Of a stretch of DNA of 64,000 nucleotides, positions 13,901-64,000 are shown piece after piece (within the stretch, counting starts at the first letter, position 1; every line of letters starts with the position of its first letter). Source of the DNA: Acorus gramineus. Its lineage: Eukaryota; Streptophyta; Magnoliopsida; Acorales; Acoraceae. The stretch lies in assembly GCA_030737835.1 (NCBI GenBank), contig JAUJYN010000025.1, positions 1,178,001-1,242,000 of the forward strand. The letters run 5' to 3'. Position numbers and translations under genes: made by a program. The notes beneath the pieces were generated by a model. That model saw only the letters and a list, made by a program, of their open reading frames with translations, was not told the origin of the DNA and ran no database searches.

Positions 13901-16198
13901 AGAGCCATGTCTAATCCAAATAAAATACATCATGTGCAACACGCATGATTAACAAATACATGACTCTAGGACTGTTGACAGCCTCGCACTCGTCAACCGC
14001 AAGACGGAACGCTCCACGCACACAAAACCATGCCATAGGGAAGCTCCAGCTCTACACCCAACATTGCCCCTGAAGAGAAAAAGTACGCGAGGGGTGAGCT
14101 ACAAACTCAGTGAGTGGCTAAAAACCAAACACCATCACAACAATTCAATACTAAGGCAATTTCCTTTCAAGGAAAACATGAGTAGAAACCCAAAAGATAA
14201 CAAGGTCACGCGACGACGCGACCCAAACCTCGCCCTCACTCCCCGAAGGGAGGCTTTTGGGACACTCGGTGTTATGCCTGTGTCATTTGGAGCCATTTCG
14301 CTTAAGCCTTGGTCACTTCTGGGTCATTCAGGGCCTTTTTAATTTTTCGATCGGAGCCGCTAAAATTTTGGCTTTTAGCCACCTGCGGGAGTTAGAGTAC
14401 TCTGATTGGAAATCTGACTGCATATTATGGGTCCTGGTACCATTTGGTATTGCCCACAGAAATTTCATCGAGTTCTGGTTACGTTTTAGAAAATTTTGCA
14501 GTTCTGAATCGTATCCGGGTTTTGACCTATTTGAAGTGTCAAAGGGTGACTTTGACCAAGTCAAGTGGACTTGGACCAAGTCAAAGAATACCATTGACTA
14601 GGTCAATGGGTTTTGTTTTCTAGTTTGGTTGGGTTGACTCAAAGTCAATCCCCACCCACCCCCTTTTTCTCAAATAAATGCTAAGTGTGTGAGTGTGTGA
14701 GTGTGCTTGAGGTGGGCGTCCCCTTCATTTCCCTCTCCCTCTCACTCTCTCCTTCACTCCCTGGTTTTCTTTGTTTTTTTGGGTTAAATAAAAGAAGAAC
14801 AAGAAGGAGAAGAAGAAACATTAAAAGGAAAAGAGAAAGGTATGTGTGTGCAAGCTTTGGGTGTTGTAGTTGTTGTTGTTGTTTCTCTTCTCATTAGCTC
14901 CTTCTCATGCCTCCCCCCCCCTGTTTTCAGCCAAGGAAGGCTGGTGGAGTGGCTGATGAGGTGGTGGTAGTGGTGGTGGTGGTAGAGGTGGTCGTGGGTG
15001 TGTCGAGAACCCCGCATCTCCCCATTTCCCTTCCCCTGTTTTGGTAAGGCAGCACACTGTCTTTTAAAGATCTCAGTGAATCTAGTATTTAGAGGCATAT
15101 TTGTAGGATTATGTCTTCTTATGATTTGATCAGCTATGTGTCTAGATGTTATATATGAAATTTGGGGTCATTATGATATCTGTGGTGTAAGTTAGAACCA
15201 GTTTTGCATGACCTGTCCAGATTCACGCAGGAATTGACCTGCTTCGGGAAATGATTTGTTTCGGGCTTGTAGAGGCAAGTCTTCATGAATTATGAGCCCA
15301 TCATATCATAGAATGTGCATGATTTATTTCATAATTTTTGGAAGTGTATTGGGTGCTGTGAAGACCAATTAGTAGGGCTGGTTGCAGCAGGTTTAGCAGT
15401 TTTGCTTGGTTGAGTGTCAAGGAGTTGGTTGCATGTGTCTTGGGTGATAATATGGAAGTATCAGGGGTTAGGGTTTTCATGAAGTAAGCTTATATGTGTG
15501 ATAGGAGGTTCCATAATTTAATTATGGATCATTGGTTGTGTTTTGCAGATCTCGTAGACCGGACGCGCGGCGATCCGGGTATCGGTGAGTGGTTCGATCC
15601 AATCCCCCCCCCCCTCTCAGGATGCGCTCGACGCGCGTAGTCGCGCGTCGCGCATCGATGGGGCCCCCTAGCTATACTACTTGTGTAGATAAGTAGTGTC
15701 ACGCCCCAGGGCGGCCGTCCCCGAGACGTGGCAATAATAAAATATCAGCTATCAATACCTGAGGTCAATAAAGACTCCAACAACAACACACAAGGTGGCA
15801 AAGCAAGGATAATGATAACTGACTGAAAAGCGGAAGCATAATATATAAACAATGTCTGTAAACCAAAAACATTATTACAGACTCGAATACACAATCACTG
15901 TCCTGTGAGAGCCAAGTCTAGACCAAAGAAAAATACAACATGTGCCACATGCACGATTTACAATACATACAATGACTCTAGGACTGCTGACAGCCTCGCA
16001 CTCGCCACCCGTTGGAAGAACGCTCCACGCCCATAAGACCACGCCACAGGAAAGCTCCAGCTCCACGCCCAACACTGCCCCTGAAAAGAAACAGTATGCG
16101 AGGGGTGAGCTACAAGCTCAGTGAGTGGCTGGAAACCAATCACCATACAATAGTTCAATACATAAACAATTCCCTTTCAAGGTAAACATGGGTGTAAA

Positions 16199-19100
16199 TG
16201 TCACGCCCCAGGCGTCCCCGAGACGTGGCAATCATAAAATGTAATATCAGTTATCAATACACGAGGTCAATAAGGAAACCAACAACAATACACAAGGCAG
16301 CAGAGCAAGGTAATGATAACTGACTGAAAAGCGGAAGCATAATATATAACAATGTCCGTAAATCAAAAACATTATTACAGACCCGAATACACAATCAATG
16401 TCCTGTGGAAGCCAAGTCTAGACCAAAGAAAATACAACCTGTGCCACATGCACGATTTACAAAGCATAAAAGACTCTAGGAATGCTGACAGCCTCGCACT
16501 CGCCACCCGCCGGAAGAACGCTCCACGCCCATAAGACCACGCCACAGGAAAGCTCCAGCTCCACGCCCAACACTGCCCCTGAAAAGAAACAGTATGCGAG
16601 GGGTGAGCTACAAGCTCAGTGAGTGGCTGGAAACCAATCACCATCTACAGGTCAATACATAAATCAGCTCCCTTTTTCAAGGAAAAACATGGGTAGAAAC
16701 CCAATGATCACTGGGTCATGCGGCGGCGCGACCAACCTCACCCCCACCCTCACTCCCGAAAGGAGTCTTTTGGGACTTATGGGGAGAGACCATACCGTCG
16801 GTCGAAGAGACCCGGATTTACTGGTCAAGAGCCCATGCCGTCGGTCGAAGAGACCCGGACTTACTGGTCTACTCAACACTACTGGATCATCTACATCTAG
16901 ATAATTGCCCATCGATGTCCTTCAACATCCATCACAAGACCGGACCCAACATCTATGGGAACGGTCGAACAACGAATGGGTCACGATGGACGCGTCTTCG
17001 CCTCATCCACACCCTCACTCCTGGAAGGAGACATCTTGGGACTTTGGGAGAGACTTAGACTGCTCTACACCCCTGGTCCACCGGTAGCCTCTCCCTGGCC
17101 TGTAAAGTCGGGGAGTTCCTACATCGGATCCAACGAAGGGGAGAACGATTCCACGCTCGCGACATCATTCGTTAACCCTCTTCCGGGCAGCCTCTACCTG
17201 GCCACACACTCAGTGAATGGCACCAACTATACATCACAAATCATATCAACCTCAAATCAATCATAGCCTCTAAGTGGCAATGACTACACAATCCAATGGG
17301 TCGCTATATCGCCGACCCACCACACCCTCACCCTCACCCTCACAGGGTAACATGGGCTTTTGGGACTGACTAGGCTGTTAATCACCCTTGGTCCACCAAT
17401 AGTCTCTCCTCCACTCCGTAGGCCGCCTGGTCCGCTCCCACAATTCAGCACAGTCCGAACCCAAATCAGGAGGTGCCTATTGATGGGAGCCCTCTGTCAG
17501 GAAGGCCTGTCTAACGCTGGGGCAGTCTCTATACGGATCCAACGAAGGGAACAGAAACAGCCTACCCACACGGATACGATCCACTTGGATCCGTCGACAC
17601 TGATCTCAACTCTACAAATGACATGAATTCTTCAGAATTCCTCCAGGGCGCATAACTAAGATGCGGGGAAGCATATATTATAATATTCTCGGGAAAAGAA
17701 ACCTTGGGAGGGCACCCTGAGGTCCCGATATAGGATATCCCGACAACCAAACAAGGAACACGGAGTACCCTAGCCCGGGTCTCAATGTTGACCTCGCAAG
17801 GCCTCTCATAACATTTTCTAAGGCATGCTAATAATCATATAATCACATCGCTAATAACAATATAATCCCACAATCCCATCTTGATTTAAACAAATTAAAC
17901 TAAATGGGAACATGCATAGGTCGAGGCTTTCCTAGCATGAAAACATAGTGACAGGATGCATTGGCCTTTACACATATAGGGTCTAGGGTGGCATGTATGT
18001 TAGGGCAAGTATCCCTAACATACAGGGTCTAGGGTGGCATGGATACTACATAATGATCATGCATACATAGATCAAGGCCTTTAAGTACAGGGCATGGTGT
18101 CCAGGCATGTACAGGCCTCTATACATGATGTATGGGTGCATATTCCTAACATGCAAGTCTAGAGTGGCATGCATAGCATCATATTGATCATATAAGGGTG
18201 CATGCATAGCTTCTACATATAATAGCTAGGGGACCCCATCGATGCGCGACGCGCGTCTACGCGGGTCGAGCGCATCCCTAGAGAAGGGGGGGGGGATTGG
18301 AATCAAACCACTCACCTTACGACCCGGGACCTCGCGCATCCCATCCGACGAGATCTGCAAGGTAGGGGCATCCAACTGGTGAGAAACAACACAATTTATA
18401 CATAGAAATGCCTAGAAATACCCAAAACTCGGATAAGCATGCATACGGGCTAGCACGCATGCGAGCACGCGCGTACGCACTCGAGTCCGAGTTCCCCGAC
18501 ACCTACCCGAACCACCGGGAAGCCACACGCATGGCCCCCCCACGCGCACGCACGAATGCGCACGCACGCACGCACCCCAGCACTATTGGCGCACTGCCGC
18601 GCACCTGCCCGCTCACCCAGACACGCTGCCGCACGCACGCGCACTCTCGCGCGCGCCCGCACGCACTGCGCGTCCAGCCCAGCGCGCCCCCGCGCAGCAC
18701 CCCGCGCACACCCCAGCACGCGCGTGCGCACTGGTCCCCAGCTCCGCGCCTAGGCGCATGCCCAGGCGCCCTACCCGCGCGCGCGCACTCCTGCGCGCAC
18801 CCCCGCTCGCACCTGCACCCGCGCGCACCCGCACGTGACTACGCGCCCGACTGCGCCATCCAGCACCCGCCTGCGCACGCACGCGCGCAGACCGCGCCCA
18901 GCGCGCACCCAAGCCATCCTAACCCCTTTTTCACCCTTCCCAACCCCTCACACACACCCTAACCCAACTACCAAGCATGCATGACCTCCCAACCAACCCC
19001 TTAAGCCAAGAAAACCAAGAAAAGAAGGGGAGGAGCTCACCTTGGAAGGGGAACGAAAGGGGGAGGTTCGGGGGCCCTTCGCGCACCGAAACGCCGCCAC

Positions 19101-25800: not shown

Positions 25801-28800
25801 TATTGTAAGTCGTGCATGTGGCACAGGTTGTATTTTCTTTGGTCTAGACTTGGCTCTCACAGGACAGTGATTGTGTATTCGAGTCTGTAATAATGTTTTT
25901 GGTTTACAGACATTGTTTATATATTATGCTTCCGCTTTTCAGTCAGTTATCATTATCCTTGCTTTGCCACTTGTGTGTTGTTGTTGGAGTCTTTATTGAC
26001 CTCAGGTATTGATAGCTGATATTTTATTATTGCCACGTCTCGGGGACGGCCGCCCTGGGGCGTGACACTCAGGGAGGAACAACTATTAACCATAACACAT
26101 GGTGTTACTAGTTAACAAGATACAACGAGTCAATCCGCTACGAGGTAGAGATATACTTCTATACCTCAAGCGTTAGGAGCTGCGTACCCAGAGTATACTC
26201 GATGGGTATAAGAGTCACGTGACGACGTGACTTCAACTTACCCTCACTCCTAAGGGTGACATGGGACTGTTGGGAGAATCCTTTTTCTCTACACCCTTCG
26301 TCATCCGGTAGCCCTCTCCCGAGTAGCCTCTACCTGGTATACTCCCATGATCAGTACATCTGTCGAACGCATCGGTAGTACCTACAAGTGGGAGCCCTCT
26401 GTCAGGACAGCTTCAACGTCGGGCAGCTTCAACGCAGATCCGATGAAGGGGAGAATGATTCCACGGTCACAATATCGTCCGGTAGCCCTCTTTCGCGTAG
26501 CCTCTACCTATCGGCCTTCCATGATCGGTACATCCGCTAGATGGGTACAACAGTACGCATCAATAGCACAGACAAGTGGTGGCACTACACAGGACAACTT
26601 CGACACTGGGTAGCCTTGGTGCACGACGATATTGGGATGAAGACTTCACGTTCGCAATGCGAACCCTATGGAAAATCAACTATCCTAGGTAATCCCATAC
26701 CGATGCTATCGAAATACGCTTGAACTCCCATAGAGATGCGTTGCTCAGACGCAGGGAGTCACCTCTGCTCTCGCACAGAGATAAGCCCTAAGGCATAGCC
26801 CAACAGGCAGTTCATACACTCGCCTAACCTAGGTAGGCCTAGCTTAATACCATAACTACCGGCTTAACAGAACCGATATGTCATTGAATTTTCCTGAATT
26901 CCATTCAAGTGCATCTATCGGATGCAGGGTGGTGAATATATCCCTCGCGCTCTAACTAATGAGGTAAAACCCGACAACGTGTCGTACCCACGCCTATTTC
27001 AAATAGGCCTAAATAGTTTTCACATGCGTGATAACATATGATTAATTAAAGGGTACTCCCTAACATGAATATACATCATAGACAATAAATCATGCAACAC
27101 ACATACAAGGCGTGGCCTAACTACACATGCATATGAGGCACATTAATCATATAAGCACACAAGGTATAACTTAAGCATGCGTTGGATATCACCAACTTAA
27201 AAGGGAAGGGTTAAGCGCGATCTCGCGCACCAACCGGTGCATGCCGATAATCCCAAGCGTATCTGAATCAAGTAGGAACCACAACTACTTACTCAGTTTC
27301 CGCACAGAGGGAGGGCAAGAGAGAGGGAAAGTCTCATCCTCTTTGGAAGCTAGTCAAAGCTTTGCCCCAACAAGATGGGCGCAACAACCATACCACGTCC
27401 TCCACTCTTATGACCAGAGAATGTTAAATATGCACCCGGTTATTAACCAAGGGTTTAATCATGCTAGATATCACTAACATAGGGAGGTAGTACTGTAAAC
27501 AAGGACTATCTAAGGCATGCATATTCTATACATTCATATAAACACACATCACACATGCCCATACATGAAGGGCGCATGCAAACATAATAATTCACACATG
27601 AATATGATACATAGGCAAGTATATGGTAGAATAGGGGGGTTCTACACAATATACGAGCTATACTAACCTAGCATGCAAATATGTAGCATATTATGGGTTA
27701 GACATGACCATACTACTTATCTAAATAAGTAGTATAGTCAGGGTGCCCAACGGATGGATGTGCGACGCACGATTACGTGCATCCAACGCTTCCCGAAGGG
27801 TTGGATCGAACCACTCACCTAACGACCCATTTATCGTGAGTTCCGCCAACTAAAGCTGCAAAACACAACCAATGATGCTCAATTAAAATATGGAACCTCC
27901 TGACACACATATAAGTCTACTTCATGAAGACCCTAACTCTTGATAGTTTCCACAACATGCATAACAACTCCTTGACACAAATAGAGCAAACTGCTAAACC
28001 TGCTGCAACCAGCCCTACTATTTGATCTCCACAACACCAAATACACATCCAAAAATTATGAAAAAAATCATACACATTCTATAACATGCTGGGATCATAA
28101 TCCATGAAGACATTATAACCTACCTTTGCGTCTACAAGCTCTATATAAATTATTTCCAGAAGCAGGTCAATTCCCACGTGAATCTGGACAGGCCATGCAA
28201 AACAGGTTCTAACTTACAACATAGATATCATGATGACCCCAAATTTCATATATACTATCTAGACACATGAAGGAACATATCACATGATGACACAATCCAA
28301 AAAATATGCCTTTAAATACTAGTTTCACATGTATCTTTACAAGACAGAGATCTACCTTACCAAAAGAGGGGGAGGGAAATGGGGAGATGCGGGTTCTCGA
28401 CACACCCACGACCACCTCAACCACCACCACCACTACCACCACCTCATCAGCATCTCCTCAAGCCCTTCTTGGCTGAAAACAGGGGTGTAAAGGGGGCATC
28501 AGAGGGAGATAGAGAGAAGAGAAACAACAACAACAACAACAATAACAACACACACACTCACCCTTTTCACACTCTCTCTTGTGCTTCTGCTTCTTCTTTT
28601 CCTTCTTTAACAACACACACACACACACAAAAAGAAAACAGAGAGGGAGAGGGAGAGGGAGAGATGAGAGTGAGAGAGAGAGAGAGGGAGAGGGAGAGAT
28701 GAGAGTGAGAGAGTGAGGGATTTTCTCACTTTGGGGGGGGTGATGAGAAGGAAAGAAAAGGGGGTGAACTTAAGCCTATTCTCACCCTCTAACACTCAAA

Positions 28801-31171: not shown

Positions 31172-31750
31172 TCACGCCCCAGGCGTCCCCGAGACGTGGC
31201 AAAATTAATATAATATCAGCTATCAATACCTGAGGTCAATAAAGACACCAACAACAATACACAAGGCGGCAAAGCAAGATAATGATAATTGACTGAAAAG
31301 CGGAAGCATAATATATAAACAATGTCTGTAAATCAAAAACATTATTACAGACTCGAATACACAATCACTGTCCTGTGAGAGCCAAGTCTAGACCAAAGAA
31401 AATACAACCTGTGCCACATGCACGATTTACAAAGCATAAAATGACTCTAGGAATGCTGACAGCCTCGCACTCGCCACCCACCGGCAGAACGCTCCATGCC
31501 CATAAGACCACGCCACAGGAAAGCTCCAGCTCCACGCCCAACACTGCCCTGAAAAGAAACAGTATGCGAGGGGTGAGCTACAAGCTCAGTGAGTGGCTGG
31601 AAACCAATCACCATACTACAGTTCAATACATAATCAATTCCCTTTTTCAAGGAAAAACATGGGTGGAAACCCATGGATAACTGGGTCACGCGGCGGCGTG
31701 ACCAACCTTACCCCCACCCTCAGTCCCGGAGGGAGTCTTTTGGGACTTAT

Positions 31751-31891: not shown

Positions 31892-33648
31892 TACTCAACA
31901 CTACTGGATCATCTATATCTAGATAATTTCTCAAACGATGCCTTTAAACATCGATACAAGACCGGACCCAACAACTATGGGAACGATCGAACAACGAACG
32001 GGTCACGCGGCGATGTGTCTTCACCTCATCCTTACCCTCACTCCAGGAGGGAGACTATTGGGACTTTTGAAAGAGGCTTAGACTGCTCTACACCCTTGGT
32101 CCACCGGTAGCCTCTCCTGCGTAGCCTCTACCTGGTATACTCCCACTATTAGTACTCTTCCGAACGTGTCGGTGGTACCTACGGATGGGAGCCCTCTGTC
32201 AGGACAGATGTAATCGCCGGGAAGTCCCTACTCGGATCCAACGAAGGGGAGAACCATTCCCACGCCCACAACATCATTCGTTAACCCTCTCTCGGGTAGT
32301 ATCTACAACCCGATCTCCTCAACTCACCGCTCTACACCCTTGGTCCGCCAGTAGCCTCTACCTGGTATACTCCCACGATCAGTACTCTTCCGAATGCATC
32401 GGTGGTACCTACGGATGGGAGCCCTCTGTCAGGACAGCTAAACCAGAGAAGTTCCCACATCGGATCCAACGAAGGGGAGAACGATCCCATGTTCGCAAAG
32501 CGAACCCAATGGAAAACAACTACTCTCGATACTCACTTATCGAGATATCAAAACACAGGCATAACAACAATCAACACACTCATATTAACCTTAAAGTAGT
32601 CATAGTCCCTATACAGGAGTAACTACACAAGTTAGAGGGTCGTAACATCGCCGACCCACCCCACGCTCACCCTTTAGGGGTGTCATGGGCCTTTTGGGAC
32701 AGACTAGACCGCTCTCCACCCCTGGTCCACCTGGTAGCCTCTCCCACACTCTGTAGCCTCTACCTGGTATACTCCCACGATCATCACTGTCCGACGCATC
32801 AGAGGTACCTACAGATGCGAGCCCTCTGTCAGGTCAGATTTCCAACGCTGGGGAGTCCCTACATCGGATCCAACCAAAAGAAGAAGACAGCCTACTCGCA
32901 CGTATACGATCTTCTTGGATCCATCGACAACGATTTCTAACACTACTAATGTCATGAATTCTCAAGAATTCTTCCAGGGCACATAACTAAGATGCGGGAA
33001 GACATATATTATAACAACGAGGTTATAATATTCTCTAAGGCATGCTCATAACAATATGCATTCACATTTGATTTAAATAAATTAAACTAAATGGGCAACA
33101 TGGGTAGATAGGGGCTTTCCAATCAAGGGACATGGTGTCTAGGCATGTATGGGCCTCTATACATGATATATGAGTGCATATCCCTAGCATACAAGGTCTA
33201 ATATGGCATGGTTTCATCATATTATAACATGCATTAACATCGTTTCTACATATTTTAGCTAGGGGGCCCCATCGATGCGCGACGCGCGTCTATGCGGGTC
33301 GAGCGCATCCCTAGAGAGGGGGGGGGGGAGATTGGAATCGAACCACTCACCTTACAACCCGGGACCTCGCGCATCCCATCCGACAAGATCTGCAAGGTAG
33401 GGGCATCCAATTCGGTGAGTAACAACACAATTTACACATAGAAATCATTAGAAATACCCAATACTCGGACAAGCATGCATACGGACTCGCACGCATGCGA
33501 GCACGCACGTACGCACGCGAGTCCGAGTGCCCCGACACCTACCCGAACCCTTGGGCAGCCACACGCATGGCCCCCCGCACGTGCACGCACGAATGCGCAT
33601 GCACGCACGCACCACAGCACCCCTGGCGCACTGCCGCGCCCCTGCCCG

Positions 33649-36191
33649 TGTTATATATGTGTCACTTTTAGCCTTCTGGTCACCATTGGGACATTTCTGG
33701 CAGTTTTTCAACTTTTTCTTTTTCGATCGGAACCGCTAAAATTTTGAACTTTTAGCTATCATCCTGAGCTTGAGAACTCCAATTGAAAATCTAACTGCAC
33801 ATTACGTGTCCTGGTGCCATTTCAAGCCACTCACGAAAATTTCATCGAATTCCGGTAACGTTTCAGAATTTTGCAGTTCTGAATCGTATCCGGGTTTTGA
33901 CCAAGTGGAAAGTCATGGGGAGACTTGACCAAGTCAAGTTTGACCATTGACTTGGTCAAAGCATTTTGTTTGTTTGTGTGGTTAGGTTGACCCAAAGTCA
34001 ATCTCACCAAAAACCTAAAAAGCCCTAAGTGTGTGAGTGTGTGTGTGTGTGTGTGCAACCTTGGACGCCCACTTCTTCTCTTCTCTTCTCTTCCTCTCTC
34101 TCACACACAAAAAGATCCCTCTCTCCCTCTTGTTATTTCTTTCCATTAGAGCTAGTAGAAGAGGTTGAAATGGAAAGCCATTGAAGAAGAAAAGATTGGT
34201 AGGGGTAAGATCTACCTTTCCATGGTTTTGTTTTTTATTTCCCCTTTGTTGACCTCCTCTCATGGTCTCCCTTCTCCCCTGTTTTCAGCCCTCTTTAAGC
34301 CTTGTTAGAGGCTGAGGTGGTGGTGGTCTTGGTGGCGGCGATTCGGTGCGCGAAGAGCACCCGAGTTCCCTCCCTTTCCTTTCCTCTCTTTGGGTAAGTC
34401 ATTCTCCTCCCCTAGCTAGGTTAGATGCTTGTAAAGGGTGTGTGTTTGGGTATGCATGCTTGCATGGGTGTTAGGGGGGTGAGGGTGGGCTGAGGAGGGG
34501 GTGGGAAGGGCTCGGGAAGCGAGTCTGCGCGCGCAAGCAGGCGCTGGCACGCGCAGACGGGCGCGCTGGCAAGTGCGCGCGCGTACGCGCAGACGCGCGG
34601 AGTGCTGTGCGGGGGCGCAGTGCGCGCGGGCGTGCGCACGGAGTGCTGCGCAGGGGCGCAGTACGCGGGGTACGCGCAGGGCTGGACACGCGGTGCACGC
34701 GGACGCGCGCGAGCATGCGCGCGCGCGCGGCAGCGTGTCTGGGCGCGCGGGCTGGGGCGCGGCAGCGCGTCTGGGAGCGCGGGCTGGGGCGCGGCAGTGT
34801 GCCCGGGGCGCAGGGGCGCGTGCGTGCAGGCGCCTTCGTGCGTGCGCGTGCGGGTGGCCGTGCGTATGGCTGCTCGTGGGTTCGGGAGGGTGTCGGGGCA
34901 CTCGGACTCGCGTGCTGCTAGCGTGCGTGCGGGCCCGTATGCATGCTTGTCCGAGTATTGGGTATTTGTAGTGTATTTCTTAGGTATTTGTGTAGTTTAC
35001 TCACCATATTGAATGCCCTGTCGTGCAGATCTTGACGGATGGTCACGCGACGACCCGGGATTCGGTGAGTGGGACAATCCAATTTAGTAGGGAGGCGTTC
35101 GATGCACGTAGGTGTGCATTGCCCTCCCCTGGGGCACCATAATTATATATTAACATGTAATAAATGTAAAGCTATGCATGCATGATTGATATGATGTATT
35201 CATGCCACCTTAGACTTTGTATGCAAGGGATATGCACCCTTATATCATGTATAGCGGCCTATGCATGTTTAGTCATCTTGTCCTTTAATTGGTAAACCCC
35301 GACTATGCATGTTCCCATCTAGTTTAATTTAATTAAATCAAAATGTGAGCATATAGTTACAAGCATGCCTTAGAGAATATTATAACATGTAATAATTGTA
35401 AAGCTATGCATGCATGATTCATATGATATATCCGCTGGGAGCGCGTCTGGGAGCGTTAGCTGGCCTGACAGAGGGCTCCCATCTGTAGGTACCTCTGATG
35501 CGTCGGACTGTGGTGATCGTGGGAGTATACCAGGTGGAGGCTACGAGGGTGGGAGAGGCTACCGGGTGGACCAGGGGTGGAGAGCGGTCTAGTATGCCCC
35601 CAAGAGGCCCATGTCACCCCCCCCCCCCCCGAAAAGGGTAAGGGTGAGGGGGGAGGTGGGTTGGCGATAAAACGACCCATTAGAATGTGTTGTTGCTCCC
35701 GTGTTAGGGGCTATAATTATATAAGGTTAATATGAATTGTGATGCATGGGTTGTGCTATTCACTGAGCGTGTGGCTCACCCCTCGCATATATTTTTCTCC
35801 AGTTATCTCTGAGTCGGATCTGAAGGAGGAGCTCCCCGAGGCACATCAGCAGTAGCGGAGCAGCGTCATGTTCTGCAAGTGAGAGGCCATCAGCATCCCC
35901 TTCTTGATTGTATGTATTGTATTCCGTGCTTGGGCACATACTTGTATTTGGATGTCGTTGTATATGTTGGCTCTCACAGGACAGTTGATTATGTATCGGG
36001 TCTGTAATATGTCTTTGAATTACAGACTCAGTCGTTTGAGCTTCTGCTATTTGTATATATTATGTCAGCTACCTTATTGTCCATGTTGTCATTTTTGGTG
36101 TCGTTTAGAGTATGTTATTGATATCCTGTATAGACTGCTGATATTATATATACTTGCCACGTCTCGGGGACAGCCGCCCTAGGGCGTGACA
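33649..36191 (+). mobile_element. T9: Tekay/Del solo LTR, subfamily A, reverse
   Basis: A 2543-bp unit in plus sense, TGTTATATATGTGTCAC at 33649 to CTAGGGCGTGACA at 36191. It is flanked by a perfect duplication GCCCG (33644-33648 and 36192-36196) inside the GC-rich island of T8. In sense order it has a (GT)n run at about 34030-34055, donor GTAAGT at 34394, GC-rich island 34500-34920, acceptor CGTGCAG at 35022-35028, 36-nt cassette at 35029-35064, GTGAGTGG, and second acceptor TTTTTCTCCAG ending at 35802. The sequence at about 35430 jumps ahead relative to other copies, so part of the middle is missing. Confidence 0.92.
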
Positions 36192-40240: not shown

Positions 40241-43200
40241 TGTCACGCCCCGGGCGTCCCCGAGACGCGGCAAGTGTATATAAAATATCAGAATCTATAC
40301 AGGAGGTCAATAATATATCATACACAAGCAACCAGAATGACACACAGATAACAAAGGGGCTGACATGATATATACACCAAATGCGGAAGCAAAAGACTGA
40401 ATCTGTAAATAAGCATACTACAGACTCGATACTCAATCATCTGTCCTGTGAGAGCCAATATACACAAATACAACTGAATATATACAAACGCGTGCACAAG
40501 CACGGAAATAAAATACATACAGCCAATAAGGGATGCTGATAGCCTCTGGCACTCGCGGAATGTAGCGCTGCTTTGCTACTGAAGGAATCTCTCAGACGGC
40601 TCCAACTACTCCTCCGGCTCCGGCTCAGTGACAACTGGGGAAAACATATGCGAGGGGTGAGCCACACGCTCAGTGAACAGCACAACCCATGCATCACAGA
40701 CAATATTGACCACAATTCAATCTTTATAACCCACAATCTCTTATTAACAACCACAAAATGGTAACAAATACTCAAACCAGTGGGTCGGTCAATCGCCAAC
40801 CCACTACACCCTCACCCTCACCCTTCAATGGGTGACATAGGATTTTGGGACTGATAATCATCCAATCACAAACCAGCAGGTCGCTACTCGCCAACCCACT
40901 ACACCCTCACCCTCACCCTACCACGGGTGACATAGGATTTTGGGACTGACTAGGCTGTTGGTCACCCTTGGTCCACCGATAGTCTCTCCTCCACTCCGTA
41001 GGCCGCTTGGTCTACTCCCACATTCAGCACAGTCCGAAACCAAATCAGGAGGTGCCTACTGATGGGAGCCCTCACCCACAACTTCAGCACAGTCCGAAAC
41101 CAAAATCAGGAGGCGCCTACTGATGGGAACCCTTGAAAGGGACGGCCTTTCTAACGCTGGGGCAGCCTCTACCGGATCCAACGAAGGGGACAGAACAGCC
41201 TATCCATACGCACATGATCCACTCGGATCCGCCGACTACACACCTCAACAACTCTAATGTCCTGAATTCCTCAGAATTCCTCCAGGGCGAATAACCAAGA
41301 TGCGGGGAACATGCACAGCAATAGCAAGGGTGGAATATTACTGGGGGAAAGAAACTTGGGAGGGCAGCGTGAGTTCCCGATATAGGACACCCCGACAACC
41401 AAACAAGGAACACGGTGTACCCTAGCCCGGGTCTCACCGCTGTCCTCGCGAGGCCCCTCCCCTATAATATTCACTAAGATGCTAATAATCATACAAGGGG
41501 TATAACATTAATTATCAACTCGAGATATAATATTATTGGGACAAGGATCTTGGGAGGGCAGCATGAGGTCCCGATACAGGACATCCCGACAACCAAACAA
41601 GGAACACGGAGTACCCTAACCCGGGTCTCAATGTTGACCTCGCAAGGCCCCTCCCTATAATATTACTTAAGGCATGCATTTAACACACACTAGCATTTAA
41701 TTTAATAAATAAACTAGTAGGACACATGCATAGGCCAAGGCTTCCTAGCATGAGAACAGGGGGACAAGATGCATGGCTCATACACATATCCTAAGGGTGC
41801 AAGTCCCTAACATACAAGTCTAGGGTAGCATGCATTCTACACATAAATCATGCTCGCATGAAATACACTTTAGAACCGGTTAATATAAACCCATTGTGCC
41901 CCAGGAGAGGTCGGTATACGCCCAGATGCGCATAACGCCTCTCTACTGGGTTGGATTGTCCCACTCACCAGAAATCGGGTCGACGGGCGACCGTCTGTCG
42001 AGATCTGCAAGACAGGGTATCAACTGGTGAGTATAATCCACAAATACCCCCAAATACACAAAATACACAAAATCCCAAAATCAAACAAATCCCCAACACT
42101 CGGGCAAACGCGCATACGACCCGCACCCACGCTAGCCCGAGCACCCCGGCTCACTCCCGCACCCCCGGCAACCACCCGCACGGCCACCCGACCACCCGGG
42201 TGCACCGCCGTGCCTCAGCCCGCTCACCCAGCGTACCGCCGGCCCCTGCCAGCGTGCTTGGACCCCCAGCCGCACCACCCGGGGCACCGTGCGCCCACTG
42301 CGCCCTGCCGCAGCAGCCCGCGCACACCCCGCACCGGCCCGCCAGCACACTGCATGCCCCCCGCGCACAGCGCCTTGCCTCGAGCGCACCCCGCGCGCAC
42401 CTCCCCTGCCTCGCCCCCCCGCGCACTCCGCGCGCACAGCACTCCGCACCAGCCGCTCAACCAGCTCCTCGCACTAGCCGCTCGACCAGTTCTTCCCGGA
42501 TGCACCCGTGCGCACTGCGCCCCTGCACGCGCGCCCAGCACACCCGGCACGCCAGCAACCAGCACGCCCAGCGCTCCACCGTCTCCCGCGCGCGCACAGC
42601 GTGCCTGCGCCCCTGCGCAGCACTCCGCGCGCACCCTGCACGATGCCCTGCACGCACCTCCGCTCGGCCAGCACCCAGCACCGCCCAGCGCCCTGCACGC
42701 CCCTCGCCCGCACGTCCAGCACGCGCGCCCTGCTGGCCACCAGCTCCCCCCAAGCACACCCACGCGCGCACGCCCGCGCGCGTCCAGCCTGCTGCGCTGC
42801 CTGTGCTGCTGCCGGTGCTGCCCGAACCAGCAACCCCCATGCCCGAGCACCTCCACCACCCACCCAATGGCCTCCGACGGCCTCCGACCGCCCCCAACCA
42901 CCCCCGACAGCCTCCCACAGCCGCCGACCACCACCCAAACACAAAACCCCATCCTACCATACATCTAAGCCAAAAAGAAGAGGAAAAGGAGCTTACCAAG
43001 GGGAGGAAGAGGCGTCCGGTTGCTCTCCACGCACCGAAACGCTTCCCCAACGGTCTCTACCACCGGGATCTACTCCCACCTCCGATTTGGCTTGAATCTG
43101 AGGAGAAAAGGGGACGGATGGGAGGGCTAGGTTGGTCAAAATCGGGATTTGAAAGCACCGGGGACCCGATCTACACTTCTTATGCTTTAGGTTTTTGGGT

Positions 43201-43850: not shown

Positions 43851-46279
43851 CTGTTAATCACCCTTGGTCCATCGATAGCCTCTCCTCCACACCGTAGCTT
43901 GCCTGGTCTACTCCCACATTCAGCACAGTCCGAGTCCAAGATCAGGAGGTGCCTACTGATAGGAGCCCTCTGTCAGGATAGCCTGTCTAACGCTGAGGAG
44001 TTCCTACACGGATCCAACGAAGGGAAGAGAAACAGCCTACCCACACGCATATGATCCACTCGGATCCGCTGACAACACATCTCTACAACTCTAGTGTCTT
44101 GAATTCATCAGAATTCCTCCAGGGCGCATAACCAAGATGCGGGGAACATGCATTAGTATAGACGGGAAAAGAAACCTTGGGAGGGCAACATGAGGTCCCG
44201 ATATAGGACATCCCGACAACCAAACAAGGAACACGGAGCACCCTAGCCCGGGTCTCAATGTTGACCTCGCAAGGCCCCTTAATATTCCCTAAGGCATGCA
44301 ATAATATTACCAGTTGCATTTAATTTAACAAATTAAACTAATAGGAGCATACAAAGGCCGAGGCTTTCCTAGCATGATAACAAGGTGGCAAGGTGCATGG
44401 CTCTTACACAACCTAAGGGTGCAAGTCCCTAACATACTCAGTCTAGGGTAGCATGCATACTACATATCAATCATGCTGCATGGATTACATATTAAACAGG
44501 TTAATATAAATCTATGGTGCCCCAGGGGGGGACGGTATACGCCCAAGTGCATATAGCGCCTCCCAACTGGGTTGGATTGTCCCACTCACCGAAAGTCGGG
44601 TCGTCGCGCGACCGTCCATCAAGATCTGCAAGACAGAGTATCAACTGGGTGAGTAAAATCCACAAGTACATAAAGAATACTCTAAAAATACACAACACTC
44701 GGGCAAACGTGCATACGGCCCGTACGTACGCGAGCCCGAGCACCCTGGCTCACTCCCAAACTCCCCGGGCAACCGCTCGCACGGCCACCCACCCTGGGCG
44801 CACAGCCGAGCCCCGGCCCGCGGGCACCGGCGCACTGCCGAGCCCAGCCTGCACTCCCGGACTCCCTGTCGAGTCACCCCGGGTGCACCGCGCGCTCGCT
44901 GCGCCCCAGCGCAGCCACCCGCGCTCACACCGGCACGGCCCGCGCCCCGCGCCTCGCCCCGCACGCATTCCGCAAGGACCACCGCTCGCCTCGCCGCGCG
45001 CGCACACCCCGCGCGCACCACCGCTCACCTCACCGCGCACCACCGCTCGCCTCGCCTCACCGCGCGCACACCCCGTGCCTGGCCTCTGCCCAGCGCTCCG
45101 TGCGCATGCTCCTGCACGGTGCTCAACGCCCAGCGCCCCAGCGCCCAGCACCCTCGCCCAGCACACCCAGCGCCCAACACAGCCAGCACGCCCAGCGCCC
45201 AGCACGCCCAGCACACCCAGAGCCTAGCACGCCCAGCACACCCAGCGCCCAACACAGCGCCTGTGCCACCCGAGCGCACGTCCACGCGCACGCGCGCGCG
45301 CGCCCTGCCACTGCACGCCTGCTGCGCCTGCTTGCTGCGCTGCCTGTGCTGCCTGCTGCCCGAGACTGCCAACCTCCCTGCCCGAGCTCCTCTACCACCA
45401 ACCACCGGCCACCAATGGCCTCCGACCGCCCCCAACCACCACCGACAGCCACCAGCCGCCCTCCACACTCAACCCCACCCTCCTACCATGCATCTAAACA
45501 TGAAAAAGAGGGAAAGAACCCTTACCCAGGGAACGGAGAGGAAAGGAAGGGAACCGGAGGATCTTCGTGCACCGAAACACCTCCCAACGGATCTCCACCA
45601 CCAAGACCTCCTCCTACCTCAAATGGGGCTGAAAACAGGGGAGAATAGAGGGGGTTAGAGGGGGCCAAACTTGTCGGAACTCGAATCCGAGAACACCGGG
45701 GGATAGATCGGGACCGGATCTAACCTTTCTATGTTTTGAGTTTTGAGTTCCAAGAACCCTAGGTGGCTCAAAAGCAAGAAAAGGAGAGAGGGGGAGAGAG
45801 AAAATGTGTTGGAGAAGATAATGAATAGTGGTGGGCAACCTTTTTAGATTCACTTAAATAGTCAAACCAACTTTAATTAGGGTTAACCTAGGTTTAAGTG
45901 AGGATTAAAGGCTTTAAGTGGGTTTTGACTTGGGTCAACCCAACCACACAAAAAAACAAAAAGGGTTGACCAAGTCATGGGCCCACTTTGACCGAGTCAA
46001 CTCTCCCAATGACTTCTCGCTCGGTCAAAACCCGGATACGCCCCGGAACTGTGAAATTTCAGAAACGTTACCGGAATTCGATGAAAATTTTGCGAGTAGC
46101 TTAGAATGGCAGCAGGACACATAATATGCAGTTAGATTTTTAATCGGAGCCCTCAATCTCAGGGTGATAGCTAAAAGCCTGAAATTTTAGCGGTTCCGAT
46201 CGAAAAACGAAAAAAACCCAAAAAACTGCCAGAATGTCCCAACGGTTACCAGAAGGTTAAAAGTGACACATATATAACA

Positions 46280-46927: not shown

Positions 46928-49688
46928 AGATATATTAACCACAATTAATCAACAACTAGCCTCAAAGTGGCATAACAACATAAATCCAGTAGTTCGTACA
47001 TCACCGAACCACCACACCCTCACCCTCACCCCTCAAATAGGTGACATAGGATATTGGGACTGATAATCATCCAAACACATCCATACACCCTCACCCTCAC
47101 CCCTCAATAGGTGACATAGGATATTGGGACTGATAATCATCCATACACATCCATACACCCTCACCCTCACCCCTCAACAGGTGACATAGGATATTGGGAC
47201 TGACTAGGCTATTAATCATCCTTGGTCCACCGATAGCCTCTCCTCCACACCGTAGCTTGCCTGGTCTACTCCCACATTCAGCACAGTCCGAGTCCAAGAT
47301 CAGGAGGTGCCTACTGATGGGAGCCCTCTGTCAAGATAGCCTGTCTAACGCTGAGGAGTTCCTACATGGATCCGACGAAGGGCAGAGAAACAGCCTACCC
47401 ACACGCATATGATCCACTCGGATCCGCTTACAATACATCTCTACAACTCTAGTGTCTTGAATTCATCAGAATTCCTCCAGGGCGCATAACCAAGATGCGG
47501 GGAACATGCATTAGTATAGACGGGAAAAGAAACCTTGGGAGGGCATCATGAGGTCCCGATATAGGACATCCCGACAACCAAACAAGGAACACGGAGCACC
47601 CTAGCCCGGGTCTCAATGTTGACCTCGCAAGGCCCCTTAATATTCCCTAAGGCATGCAATAATATTACCAGTTGCATTTAATTTAACAAATTAAACTAAT
47701 AGGAGCATACAAAGGCCGAGGCTTTCCTAGCATGATAACAAGGTGGCAAGGTGCATGGCTCTTACACAACCTAAGGGTGCAAGTCCCTAACATACTCAGT
47801 CTAGGGTAACATGCATACTACATATCAATCATGCTGCATGGATTACATATTAAACAGGTTAATATTAATCTATGCTGCCCCAGGGGAGGACGGTATATGC
47901 CCAAGTGCATATAGCGCCTCCCAACTGGGTTGGATTGTCCCACTCACCGGAAGTCGGGTCATCGCGCGACCGTCCGTCAAGATCTGCAAGACAGGGTATC
48001 AACTTGGTGAGTAAAATCCACAAATTCTACAAAATACTCTAAAAATACCCAACACTCGGGCAAACGTGCACACGGCCCGTACGCACGCGACCCCGAGCAC
48101 CCCGGCTCACTCCCGAACTCCCCGGGCAGCCGCTCGCACGGCCACCCGCCCCGGGCGCACAGCCGAGCCCCGGCCCGGGCGCACCGACGCACTGCCGAGC
48201 CCAGCCTGCACGCCCGGACTCCCTGCCGGATCACCCCGGGTGCACCGCGAGCTCGCTGCGCCCCAGCGCAGCAACCCGCGCGCACACCCGCACGACCCGC
48301 GCCTCGCCCCGCACGCACTCCCACGCACCACCGCTCGCCTCGCCGCGCGCGCACACCCTGCGCGCACCACCGCTAGCCTCGCCGCGCACCCCGCGTGCAC
48401 CACCGCTAGCCTCGCCTCACCGCGAGCACACCCCGCGCCTGCACCTCTGCGCAGCGCTCCGCGTGCATGCTCCCGCACGGTGCCCAGTACCCAGCGCCCC
48501 AGCGCCCTCGCCCAGCACACCCAGCGCCCAACACAGCCAGCACGCCCAGCACCCAGCACGCCCAGCACCTAGCACGCCCAGCGCCCAACACACCCGCACC
48601 TGCGCCACCCGAGCGCACGCCCGCACGCTCGCCCTGCCACTGCAAGCCTGCTGCGCCTGCCTGCTGCGCTGCCTGTGCTGCCTGCTACCCGAGACTGCCA
48701 ACCTCCCTGCCCGAGCTCCTCTACCACCAACCACCGGCCACCAATGGCCTCCGACTGCCCCCAACCACCACCAACAGCCACCAGCCGCCCTCCACACTCA
48801 ACCCCACCCTCCTACCATGCATCTAAACATGAAAAAGAGGGAAAGAACCCTTACCCAAGGAACGGAGAGGAAAGGAAGGGAAACGGACGATCTTCGTGCA
48901 CCGAAACACCTCCCAACGGATCTCCACCACCAAGACCTCCTCCTACCTCAAATGGGGCTGAAAACAGGGGAGAATAGAGGGGGTTAGAGGGGGCCAAACT
49001 TGTCGGAACTCGAATCCGAGAACACCGGGGGATAGATCGGGACCGGATCTAACCTTTCTATGTTTTGAGTTTTGAGTTCCAAGAACCCTAGGTGGCTCAA
49101 AAGCAAGAAAAGGAGAGAGGGGGAGAGAGAAAATGTGTTGGAGAAGATAATGAATAGTGGTGGGCAACCTTTTTAGATTCACTTAAATAGTCAAACCAAC
49201 TTTAATTAGGGTTAACCTAGGTTTAAGTGAGGATTAAAGGCTTTAAGTGGGTTTTGACTTGGGTCAACCCAACCACACAAAAAAACAAAAAGGGTTGACC
49301 AAGTCATGGGCCCACTTTGACCGAGTCAACTCTCCCAATGACTTCTCGCTCGGTCAAAACCCGGATACGCCCCGGAACTGCGAAATTTTGGAAACGTTAC
49401 CGGAATTCGATGAAAATTTTGTGAGTAGCTTAGAATGGCACCAGGACACATAATATGCAGTTAGATTTTCAATCGGAGCCCTCAATCTCAGGGTGATAGC
49501 TAAAAGCCCGAAATTTTAGCGGTTCCGATCGAAAAACGAAAAAAACCTGAAAAACTGCCAGAATGTCCCAACGGTTACCAGAAGGTTAAAAGTGACACAT
49601 ATATAACAATGAGCCTGTTGCAGCAGCTGAAGTAACTCCACATAGGGGAGCTAAGAAAACCATGGCCGCTACCTCCTCGGCGAGGGAA

Positions 49689-58101: not shown

Positions 58102-61100
58102 TGTCACGCCCCAGGGCCGGCCGTCCCCGGGACGCGGCAAGTGTATATATGATATCAGTAAACAGGAGTTCAATAACATACTCACACAACAGCTAAAACG
58201 ACAACCAGGACAACAAAAGCAGGGCTGACATAATATATACACCAATAGCGGAAGCTAAAAGACTGAATTTGTAATCCAAAAACATATTACAGACTCGATA
58301 CATAATCAACTGTCCTGTGAGAGCCAATATATACAAAGACATCCAAATACAATACAAACGCGTGCCCAAGCACGGAATATAATACATACAAACAAAAGGG
58401 ATGCTGATAGCCTCTGATACTCGCGGGACGTGGCGCTACTCCGCTACTGATGAAGTCCCTCGGGGAGCTCTTCCTCCAGATCCGACTCAGATGACACTGG
58501 AGAAAAATATTATGCGAGGGGTGAGCCACACGCTCAGTGAGCAGCACAACCCATGCATCACAGCTTATATTAACCACAACCAGATATTATTATCCACAAT
58601 CTCATTACTCAAGCCACAAAATGGCAACAACTAAACAATCCAGTGGGTCGCTACTGCCAACCCACTACACCCTCACCCTCACCCCTCAATAGGTGACAAA
58701 GGATATTGGGATGGGTCGCTATCGCCAACCCACTACACCCTCACCCTCACCCCTCAATAGGTGACAAAGGATATTGGGACTTACAAACCAGTGGGTCGCC
58801 ACATCGCTGACCCACCACACCCTCACCCTCACCCTCAACAGGGTGACCTAGGATATTGGGACTGACTAGGCTGATGGTCGCCCTTGGTCCACCGATAGTC
58901 TCTCCCCACTCCGTAGGCCGTTTGGCCACCCCCACATTCAGCACAGTCCGTCCCAAATCAGGAGGTGCCTACTGATGGGAGCCCCTGCACGGGACAGCCT
59001 TTCCAACGCCGGGGTAGTCTCTACACGGATCCAACGAAGGGAACAGAACAGCCTATCCATCGCATATGATCCACTCGGATCCGCAGACAACACATCCTAC
59101 CAACTCTAATGTCCTGAATTCCTCAGAATTCCTCCAGGGCGCATAACCAAGATGCGGAGAACATGTATAATACTAATTATTAACAAGGGATATAATATTA
59201 ATTTATAAGAAGAGTTATAATATTATTGGGACAAGAAACCTTGGGAGGGCAGCATGAGGTCCCGATACAGGACATCCCGACAACCAAACAAGGAACACGG
59301 AGCACCCTAGCCCGGGTTTCAATGTTGACTTCGCAAGGCCCCTCCCTATAATATTATCTAAGACATGCTAGCAATCCATTTAATAAATTAAACTAGTAGG
59401 ACGCATGCATAGGCCGAGGCTTAGTAGCATGAGAACAGGGTGACAGGATGCATGGCTCTTACACATATCCTAAGGGTGCAAGTCCCTAACATACAAAGTC
59501 TAGGGTAGCATGCATACTACATTTTATCATGATCGCATGAATTACACATTACAACAAGTTAATATAAATCCATGGTGCCCCAGGGGAGGACGGTACACGC
59601 CCAAGTGCGTATAACGCCTCCCTACTGGGTTGGATTGTCCCACTCACCGGTAGTCGGGTCATCGCACGACCGTCCGTCAGGATCTACAAGATAGGGTAAT
59701 CAAATCGGTGAGTAAACTACACAAATAAATCCAAAAATACATTAAAATACACAACACTCGGACAAGTGTACATACGGCCTGTACGCACGCGAGCCCGAAC
59801 ACTCCTACTCACTCCCGAACCCCCGGGCAGCCGTACGCACGGCCACCCGACCCAGGCGCACAGCCGCGCCTCAGCCTGCGCGCCCAGTCGCACGGCGGAG
59901 CCCAGCCCGCACGCCCGGACACCCCGCCGAGCCTCCCGGGTGCACCGCGCGCCCACTGCGCCCCAGCGCAGCAACCCGCGCGCACACCCGCACACCCTGC
60001 GCTCCATCGCCTCGCCCCGCGCGCACCCCGCGCGCACCGCCTGCTCGCATCAACTGCTCGACTAGCCCCGGGTGTACCCGCGCGCACTGCGCCCCAGCGC
60101 AGCGCCCCGCACGTGCACCCGCTCGCACTGCGCCCGCACACCTGCCCGCTCACACTCCCCGCTCGCACCGACTGCTCGCCCACGCGCCCCTGCGGAGCGC
60201 TCCGCGCGCACGCCTCGCGCTGCGCCCAGCGCGCCCGACCGCACGCGCCCAGCGAACCCGTCAGCACCCGCCCAGCGCGCCTGCCCGCAGCTCACCGGCC
60301 TGCGCCTGCCTGCTTGCACCTGACCGCCTGCGCTTGCCTACCTGCGCGCGCCGCTGCCCGCATGCTCCCGAACCGAGCTCCACCCCGCGCACGCCCGCGC
60401 GTCCTGCCACCTGCTCCGCCTTCTGCGCTGCCTGCTGCCTTCCTACCCGAGACAGCCAACCTGCCTACCCGAGTCACCCTTCCTGCCTGCCCGAGCCACT
60501 CCACCACCACCCACCGGCCACCAATGGCCTCCAACCACCACCAACAGCCACCAGCCCTCAAAACTACCCTCCTAACAAGCATCTAAGCAAGAAAAGGAAG
60601 GAAAGAGAGCTTACCCTAGGAAGGAAAGGAAGGAAGGAAAGACCGGGAGCTCTTCGTGCACCGAAACACCTCCCCAAAGCCCTCCACCACCAAGAACTCT
60701 TTCCACCCTCAAAGGGGCTGAAATCAGAGGAGAAAAGAGGGTGTTAGAGGGGGTCAAACTCGTCGGAACTCGAATCCGAAACCACCGGTAGATAGATCGG
60801 GATGAGATCTAACCTTTCTCTTCTTTGGGTTTTAGGTTTTGACCCCTTGAACTAGGTCAAATGGTGGTTTTAAAGAGAGGGAGAGAGAGAGAAATTTGGA
60901 GACGACGATGAATAGGGGGGGTTTTGTCTTGGTCGTGGGATTTCTTTATACCCACCCCCACCCCACACATTCTCACACCCCTAATTAGATTAGCCCTAAT
61001 TAGGTTTAGGGGGGGGGGGGGTTTAGGTGAGTCTTAAGTGGGTTTTGACTTGGGTCAACCCAACCACAAATAAAAACAAAAGGGGTTGACCAAGTCATGG

Positions 61101-61396
61101 GCCCACTTTGACCGAGTCAACTCTCCCAATGACTTCTCGCTCGGTCAAAACCCGGATACGCCCTGGAACTGTGAAATTCTGAAACGTACCGGAATTCGAT
61201 GAAATTTTCGTGAGTGGCTTGGAATGACACCAGGACACATAATATGCAGTTAGATTTTCAATTAGAGTTCTCAAACTCAGGACGATAGCTAACAGTCCAA
61301 GATTTTAGCGGTTCCGATCGAAAAACGAAAAAAAACAAAAAACTGCCAGAATGTCCCAACGGTGACCGGAAAGTTAAAAGTGACACATATATAACA
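58102..61396 (-). mobile_element. T13: Tekay/Del solo LTR, subfamily A, uninterrupted reference copy
   Basis: A 3295-bp unit, TGTCACGCCCCAGG to ATATATAACA, flanked by a perfect duplication AGGTC (58097-58101 and 61397-61401). No nested insertion, so it is the best copy for reading LTR layout. In LTR sense (minus) there is a U3 with GGTCAAAGT-type motifs, TATA-like GTATAAAG near 60948, a GA-rich leader and a GTAAG donor at 60610-60614. Then come a GC-rich island 59770-60480, an acceptor (TTGTAG), a 36-nt cassette 59648-59683 and GTGAGTGG. Last come the CACCCTCACC tandem array, the CTCACCCCTCGCAT motif, the second acceptor TTTTTCTCCAG at about 58497 and a 395-bp terminal part. Confidence 0.93.
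59648..59683 (-). other. 36-nt exon-like cassette in Tekay LTR (T13 copy)
   Basis: On the minus strand the cassette is preceded by TATCTTGTAG and followed by GTGAGTGG, matching 3' and 5' splice-site consensus. Equivalent cassettes are at 7581-7616, 9614-9649, 15549-15584, 35029-35064, 41969-42004, 44590-44625 and 47948-47983 (all 36 nt), 27819-27855 and 63859-63895 (37 nt), and 18316-18354 and 33351-33389 (39 nt). The shared core reads like GACGGACGGTCRCGCGACGA. That this is a spliced micro-exon is inference. Confidence 0.6.
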
Positions 61397-62440: not shown

Positions 62441-64000
62441 TGTTATGCCTGTGTCATTTGGAGCCTTATTTTTCGATCGGAGTCGCTAAAATTTTAGCTT
62501 TTAGCCACCTGTAGGAGTTGGAGCGCTCTGATTGAAAATTAAGTTACAAATTTTTCTCCTAGAAGTTATGTATTTCCGATTTGGTATTTGGATTTAATTT
62601 TGTTAAAATCCAAGATGAAGAGGTTTAAATATGATTTTATCATGAGATGCTCAGTTTTGAGTTAGGTTTGGTACAAAAGTGGAATTAGATCAACTGGATT
62701 CATGTAGTAAAAGTTATGGGTATTTTTCCAAGTATACCCCAGGGATGAAAAATTCTGGCAGCAGCCCTGTTCAATGTTTAGCTCACATTGCGGAATAGCT
62801 GGAGGGATTATTTGATCTTGGCATAAACATGAAAGTTGTAGATAATCTTCTTGGCTTTCCAGCGGACTTTGAATTGTGCAATTCGGAGCTATATTGAGGA
62901 AGTTATGGCTGTTCTAGTGAAGCATGTACAGAATTTCTAGTCAGTGACGAATTGGTCATTTGGATCCCTCTTTTGGCTATTTATTGGCCCAAAAAAATAT
63001 CTCTCTCTCTCTCTCTCCCACTGCCCACGTCTACCTCTCTTGCCTCTCTTTATCTCTTTCACACATTCCCCCCATGTGTTTGATGAAATGCCTAAGAGAA
63101 AAGATGTAGCAAGAAGAGGAGGTGCAACTGCAAGCAAGGTGAGTGTGTGTGCTAGTGTTGATTGTTCCTCCTCACTCTCCTCCTCCCATGGTGGATCCCC
63201 TTATTTTCTTTCCCTCCCTTTTGGTTCAGCCATGAAGAAGAGAAGCAAAGATGGAGGTGGTGGTAGAGGTGGTGGCGGTCGAGGTGGTCAAGGGTGCGCT
63301 TGGGAGCCCCTACAACTCCCCCTTCCCTAACCCTCTCTTTTGGTGAGTTTTCCCTCTTCTTTATTGGTTTTTATGCATGTTAGGGTGTTCGGGAGGGCAT
63401 GCATGTGAGGTGTTTTGAGTTGGGTGCTTGTAGGGGCAAGGGGGGTAGGTTGGGGAGTGCTGGGCACGCGCGCGGGTTTGTCTGTGCACGTGCGTGCGCA
63501 GACGCGCGCACAGAGGGGCGCAGGCGGGCGTAGGCGGGCGCTGGTAGCGTACGCAGTGCGCGCAGAGCTCGCAAGCGTGCGCGCGCGCGGGGTAGTGAGT
63601 CTGGGCGTGCGCCTAGGCATGCGGCAGGGTGCCAGTGCACGCGCGCTCGTGCGTGCGCATGCGTGCGCATGCTGGGGCATGTGTGGGGCTGCCCAGGGTC
63701 TCGGGTAGGTGTTGTGGCACTCGGGCATGCGTGCGTACGCACGTGGTCACATGCGTGCGAGGTCGTATGCGTGCATTTCTAAGTCTTTAGTAATTCTAGT
63801 GATTTCTAAGTGTTAAATTGTGATGTTACTCACCAAATTTGATGCCCTTACCTTGCAGATCTCGTCGGATGGGATGCGCGAGGTCCCGGGTAATGGTGAG
63901 TGGTTCGATCCAATCCCCCCCCCCTCTCGGGATGCGCTCGACACGCGTAGTCGCGCGTCGCGCATCGATGGGGCCCCCTAGCTATACTACTTGTGTAGAT
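62441..64000 (+). mobile_element. T14: Tekay/Del LTR, subfamily B, reverse, cut by window end
   Basis: Starts TGTTATGCCTGTGTCATTTGG at 62441 after GCAGG, in plus sense, and runs past the right edge. A (CT)n-rich leader begins at about 63000. The donor GTGAGT is at 63343, followed by a short GC-rich island (63450-63760), acceptor CCTTGCAG at 63851-63858, a 37-nt cassette 63859-63895 and GTGAGTGG. The last bases match T5 at 15640-15690, so roughly 2 kb of LTR should lie outside the window. Confidence 0.88.

Follow-up and report, generated by a model that had tools for sequence, protein, structure and literature searches.

A candidate split 5' leader with a micro-exon-like cassette in the LTRs of an abundant Ty3-type retrotransposon of Acorus gramineus

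Cassettes and their carrier LTRs

The window, i.e. the complete 64,000-nt stretch of Acorus gramineus DNA analysed here, contains long terminal repeats (LTRs) with a short interval bounded by splice-site-like motifs, hereafter referred to as the cassette. The focal copy, a type A cassette of 36 nt proposed to be a micro-exon, is found at 59648..59683 on the minus strand, its left border being the position at which exon and cassette are joined in type A fossils. It is embedded in an LTR on the same strand (58102..61396) that is 86% identical over its whole length to the LTR of the element L009, and as no primer-binding site follows downstream, we take it for a solo or a 3' LTR. In minus-strand order, the LTR comprises a TATAAA box (60945..60950) that presumably serves as promoter, the proposed exon 1 (60615..60920), intron 1 (59684..60614; 931 nt, GTAAGC...TTGTAG), the cassette, the octamer GTGAGTGG (59640..59647) as the proposed donor of an intron 2, and an acceptor-like site, TTTTCTCCAG (58497..58506). 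The start of exon 1, about 30 nt past the TATA box, is a predicted one, while its 3' end is the joint detected in the fossils, and the last 310 nt of exon 1 are free of ATG in the focal copy. The stretch homologous to intron 1 is exactly missing in another type A copy, L055, and the octamer is marked by constraint on its motif, from which its use as a donor is surmised; zero copies were found joined to TTTTCTCCAG.

The initial annotation listed twelve such intervals in the window, all of which are present with the borders, lengths and LTR sense given there. Besides the focal copy, these are the type A cassettes at 7581..7616, 41969..42004, 44590..44625 and 47948..47983 (all on the minus strand), an older variant of type A at 9614..9649 (minus) and 35029..35064 (plus), a type B cassette at 15549..15584 (plus), type C cassettes at 18316..18354 and 33351..33389 (both minus) and at 63859..63895 (plus), and at 27819..27855 (minus) a type D cassette with diverged content and a B-like upstream flank. 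Eight are 36 nt long, those at 27819 and 63859 have 37 nt and those at 18316 and 33351 have 39 nt; nine lie on the minus strand and three (15549, 35029 and 63859) on the plus strand. A thirteenth, decayed type A cassette, absent from that list, is located at approximately 4055..4093 on the minus strand. The pattern GCAG-N(35-40)-GTGAGTGG matches the window 12 times, compared to 0.05 matches expected from shuffled sequence. Eleven matches are listed intervals, the focal cassette being missed since it is preceded by GTAG, and the twelfth (53547-53596) is unrelated to the cassettes and chance-like. We also note two units arranged in tandem behind the B cassette region (15697-16198 and 16199-16700), each about 500 bp long and sharing 90% identity, with relatives at 25567-26069, 31171-31670 and 51298-51807.

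To place these LTRs in context, the genome assembly (398.6 Mb, 137 contigs) was searched, and the carrier is, in our assessment, a very abundant Ty3-type element: the type A cassette-and-donor pattern alone is detected at 8,697 places. The elements L009, L010, L011 and L012 have direct LTRs of 3.2-3.4 kb (TGTT...GACA), a primer-binding site, TTGGTATCAGAGC, 3' of the 5' LTR, which we take to be of the initiator tRNA-Met type, and a purine-rich tract preceding the 3' LTR, as is typical of LTR retrotransposons. Their internal region holds a gag open reading frame and is short, with remnants of pol. The gag frame of L009 matches Retrotrans_gag (59.6 bits), Ty3_capsid (32.4 bits, cut-off 29.1) and a zinc knuckle (21.6 bits), in agreement with a Ty3-type gag, and the pol remnants in the elements read include an RNase H piece at 29.1 bits, under the cut-off of 29.8. 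With a gag frame and little pol, L009-L012 therefore probably depend on other elements for their copying. Membership in the Tekay clade of chromoviruses, named in the initial annotation and defined by reverse transcriptase and integrase placement and a chromodomain, is accordingly treated as putative. The cassette is positioned approximately mid-LTR, in L009 at 1854-1889, about 1.3 kb past the TATAAAG box and about 1.6 kb ahead of the LTR end. Intron 1 of L009 (882-1853) is GC-rich (0.69), and A-type LTRs show long opposite-strand open frames rich in Ala, Pro and Arg, which are probably an effect of composition only.

Intron 1 and the left border

If spliced leader RNA is later reverse transcribed, DNA copies exactly without the intron are left in the genome, and such fossils were detected for two cassette types. 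In type A, a genome-wide pattern search allowing up to three mismatches identified the joint between exon 1 and cassette at 16 places, and the reversed pattern at 0; 14 of the 16 are convincing, with the expected GG ahead of the joint, and the two that lack it could be unspliced copies resembling the joint by chance. The corresponding B joint is found at 38 places, again with 0 for the reversed pattern, and carries the expected G in 36 of them, two matches being without the expected exon end. Intron-less copies are thus rare, as the 16 A places compare to 8,697 places with cassette and donor. The intron itself follows the GT-AG rule and spans 859-1140 nt (about 970) in 29 A copies, and about 520 nt in B.

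One A fossil place, L055, was read in detail, and there 286 nt of exon 1 continue directly into the cassette, the GTGAGTGG donor and intron 2, i.e. the missing stretch begins precisely with GTAAG and ends with CAG, and the right-hand donor is retained. The exon 1 side is 67-78% identical to A LTRs up to the donor, and from the cassette onward the identity is 89-94%. A further acceptor inside exon 1, suggested by CTGTTTTCAG and its variants in A, B and C, is unsupported, L055 being contiguous at this position. For type B, we employed a 113-nt probe that covers the joint and extends into intron 2, and all 40 scored matches (of 2,670 candidates) span the joint, with 90-98% identity over the probe between intron-less copies and their intron-bearing B relatives. 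In a search with a gapped pattern, which returned 189 places, the spacings below 35 nt among the 100 matches listed correspond to the exact joint (5) or are two bases off (2). At the latter two places (C6:23976696-23976717 and C53:2616737-2616758), the exon-like end is two bases farther from the cassette than in the exact joint, which could reflect insertions or a shifted splice site. Two intron-1-less B joints on the minus strand, C56:929665-929697 and C56:935326-935358, are separated by 5.66 kb, a spacing as expected for the two LTRs of one element derived from spliced RNA.

Intron-less copies of type A closely resemble intron-bearing A copies, and those of type B intron-bearing B copies, from which we infer at least two separate losses. 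Judged from these DNA sequences, intron 1 is almost certainly a real spliced intron, and the intron-1-less copies indicate that RNA of the element was spliced and then copied back into DNA. On such DNA evidence the element joins the spliced plant LTR retrotransposons, and the left border of the cassette appears to be used in splicing in A and B alike, as required for a plant micro-exon. Splicing had originally been deduced from the border motifs alone; for the left border this is now backed by the exact absence of a GT...AG stretch in two types, and for the right border there is a constrained donor motif and 0 spliced copies found.

Conservation and content of the cassette

In total, 75 copies of the cassette were collected, and LTRs of A, B and C, eight per subfamily, were aligned over 2.85 kb. 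The copies fall into at least four sequence types (A-D) instead of the two initially counted. Among the 75 copies, 53 are 36 nt long, 11 have 39 nt, seven have 37 nt and one has 35 nt; the remaining three are the decayed window copy (read as 40), an artefact of the border expression (L014, read as 45) and a copy with a mutated donor (L052). The description of the cassette as near-constant applies to its borders and not to its content, which is only about 60-70% alike across subfamilies and strongly diverged in D copies. Per-column identity between A, B and C averages 0.62 in the cassette, compared to about 0.36 over the upstream 200 nt and 0.47-0.56 on the downstream side, and 39 of 2743 36-nt windows not overlapping the cassette score as high. 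Within subfamilies, the proposed comparison with 200-nt flanks gave a mixed outcome, as the cassette exceeds both flanks in B (0.954; upstream 0.907, downstream 0.896) and C (0.936; 0.925 and 0.843), but not in A (0.880; 0.851 and 0.893). Conserved islands in the A/B/C alignment include the 3' portion of exon 1 as far as its donor, the cassette itself and about 100 nt past it, and the GC-rich stretch from exon 1 to the cassette is mostly poorly conserved.

The sharpest conservation resides at the right border, where the overlapping GGTGAGTG and GTGAGTGG represent the only near-invariant 8-mers in the entire 2.85 kb. An unaltered GTGAGTGG is present in 65 of 66 copies (A 38/39, B 13/13, C 14/14), a count that covers 39 of the 40 A copies and sets aside the D copies, among which L051 and L052 have changed octamers. 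Control 8-mers, chosen free of CpG and CHG sites to allow for slow mutation elsewhere, reach the same level of conservation in 0/266 cases in A, 3/575 in B and 0/312 in C, with the caveat that the context of the octamer in A and B does contain a CpG/CHG-type site.

The content of the cassette, in turn, appears exchangeable. D-type flanks hold either a B-like cassette (L021, L052 and L053) or one of 37 nt (L049, L050, L051 and the window copy at 27819), and a comparison of the two groups gave 84-96% identity for the 95 nt flanking the cassette on either side and 45-61% for the cassettes; L054, also of the 37-nt form, was left out of this comparison. The 37-nt cassette is distantly related to B and to C (p about 0.003 each, shuffles), while its relation to A is not clear (p 0.08), and no copy of this form with other flanks was encountered among the collected loci. 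With flanks alike and cassettes unlike yet distantly related, the content was therefore replaced by, or became, a long-diverged relative within kept borders; our guess for the mechanism is a switch of template from one RNA to another at these conserved borders. A coding micro-exon was rejected, since none of the reading frames stays open across the four types and lengths of 35, 36, 37 and 39 nt occur.

A proposed split leader and its alternatives

Combining the fossils with the constraint at the right border, we propose that the LTR carries a split 5' leader of the element RNA. Exon 1, about 310 nt following the TATA box in type A, would be joined across intron 1 to the 35-39 nt cassette as a micro-exon, which would end at a GTGAGT donor. 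From there, GTGAGTGG would splice past the remaining LTR and the primer-binding site to a gag-proximal acceptor, CTTAG followed by GTTGCTGA(T/C)ATG. The doubly spliced RNA would then represent a gag mRNA with a short leader, and RNA retaining intron 2 would serve as the genome for replication. Since the primer-binding site is retained when intron 1 alone is removed, such RNA can still replicate, and this would account for the fact that the only intron-less copies seen are those lacking intron 1. We regard this model as a whole as likely, and we consider it probable that the cassette is an exon spliced at both of its borders; whether the gag-proximal site is the acceptor for its donor is about evenly balanced. 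The transcription start, the use of the right-hand donor, its acceptor and a role in gag expression are putative.

The gag-proximal site is acceptor-like and located 9 nt ahead of the gag ATG in eight of nine aligned copies, with an extra A after CTTAG in L027 and L024. It is present in A, in one B copy, in one C copy and in L021, the B and C gag leaders each being represented by a single copy, and much of the preceding leader differs. A and the sole B copy alignable in this region have a conserved acceptor-like site towards the end of the LTR, which lacks its AG in L021. In L009, splicing would delete 44 ATGs (6 with intron 1 and 38 with intron 2), leaving none ahead of gag. An ATG-free leader is nevertheless rejected as a general rule and fits many A copies only: in 29 A copies the last 310 nt of exon 1 hold no ATG in 17, one in nine and two in three (no donor was found in seven further copies). 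B and C copies contain several, so the ATG-removal argument is limited to type A.

The alternative that survives best, although we regard it as unlikely, accepts intron 1 as real and leaves GTGAGTGG unused as a donor, so that the cassette would only be the beginning of a second, long leader exon. The octamer would then be kept for a different reason, for instance as a binding site for U1 or for a protein involved in RNA protection or export. This alternative agrees with the absence of right-border fossils in three genome pattern searches, in which the joint of the cassette to the LTR acceptor was found 0 times in A and 0 times in B and the joint to the gag acceptor 0 times in A, the type to which the latter search was confined. 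The 40 scored B copies likewise all retain the start of intron 2, and conservation remains raised for about 100 nt 3' of the right border, reaching 0.96 between B and C. However, the octamer, kept in all three subfamilies, matches what we take to be a strong plant donor consensus, and splicing to the gag-proximal acceptor deletes the primer-binding site, so that no DNA fossils of this joint would be expected in the first place. Splicing to the gag-proximal site is favoured over an unused donor, because the conserved CTTAG and GTTGCTGA(T/C)ATG directly adjoin the gag start. A type C copy, L042 (1760-2113), was considered as a spliced copy due to its primer-binding site about 350 nt past the cassette, and was rejected: most of the post-cassette LTR is deleted with cassette, donor and primer-binding site kept, i.e. 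the deletion is inside intron 2.

It is far less probable that the cassette is an RNA- or protein-binding element, or a folded or dimerising RNA, with splice-like borders of secondary importance. Its content is GC-rich and more alike across subfamilies than the upstream flank, in line with such a function. Nevertheless, the borders are more constrained than the content, D copies differ strongly in content with borders kept, and in the fossils the left border is where splicing has joined exon 1 to the cassette. The folded form of this idea finds no support, as 11 cassette variants fold no better than shuffled sequences (z -0.66 to 1.81) and share no hairpin. Least credible of all is that the intron-less copies are DNA deletions, or an ancestral state preceding a GC-rich insertion, for while a single fossil place (L055) was read in sequence and many B places share one exon-end variant and so may stem from few events, A and B both have the gap at the homologous position, starting with GTAAG and ending with CAG, and an ancestral state would not give intron-less copies this close to their own types (90-98% in B, 89-94% on the cassette side of L055).

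The split leader proposed here has a partial parallel outside plants. In the retroviruses HTLV and foamy viruses, a splice donor is situated in the R region, upstream of the primer-binding site, and the spliced RNA is without this site; host and lineage differ, and we know of no intron plus micro-exon upstream of the R-region donor in these viruses. Tentatively, and at somewhat less than even confidence, the two-intron LTR leader may be viewed as a retrovirus-like switch, in which the micro-exon donor splices past the primer-binding site to yield gag mRNA, partly spliced RNA replicates and founds intron-less lineages, and the micro-exon is a module exchanged between subfamilies with its borders as fixed joints.

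According to a 2025 review, plant LTR retrotransposons are generally without introns, Ogre and EVADE being notable exceptions (PMC12786077), and spliced elements named there and elsewhere are BARE1, EVADE, Ogre, CRR and Bagy2 (PMC3735527, PMC12786077, PMC6317226), to which Ty1/copia elements of sunflower are added (PMC7730604). The spliced-out part in BARE1, EVADE, Ogre and CRR is internal (PMC3735527, PMC12786077, PMC6317226). The barley Ty1/copia element BARE1 resembles the present case in providing an alternatively spliced RNA for gag, but its 104-nt intron is coding sequence near the start of the protease domain and not LTR (PMC3735527). Introns are likewise spliced from part of the transcripts in Ogre (Ty3/gypsy) and EVADE (Ty1/copia), where, unlike here, the intron is between two open reading frames (Ogre) or splicing removes part of the protease (EVADE), both in the internal region (PMC12786077, PMC6317226). 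RNA splicing in a plant Ty3 chromovirus is also described for maize CRM1, there as a back-spliced circular RNA of the proteinase-coding region and an adjacent intergenic stretch, in contrast to a leader micro-exon located in the LTR (PMC7010299). Barley Bagy2 (Ty3/gypsy) yields a spliced subgenomic RNA, which is an env RNA (PMC3735527), and a leader donor is possible in this element. None of the titles and abstract openings listed in our literature searches described an intron within a plant LTR, although this does not prove that no such case exists.

The authors of the BARE work argued that spliced RNA is not copied (PMC3735527). Set against this argument, the intron-less copies of A. gramineus naturally document the reverse transcription of spliced RNA. 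An intron wholly within the LTR is doubled with each insertion and persists in solo LTRs, and if the donor at the right border works, LTRs could splice into neighbouring host DNA.
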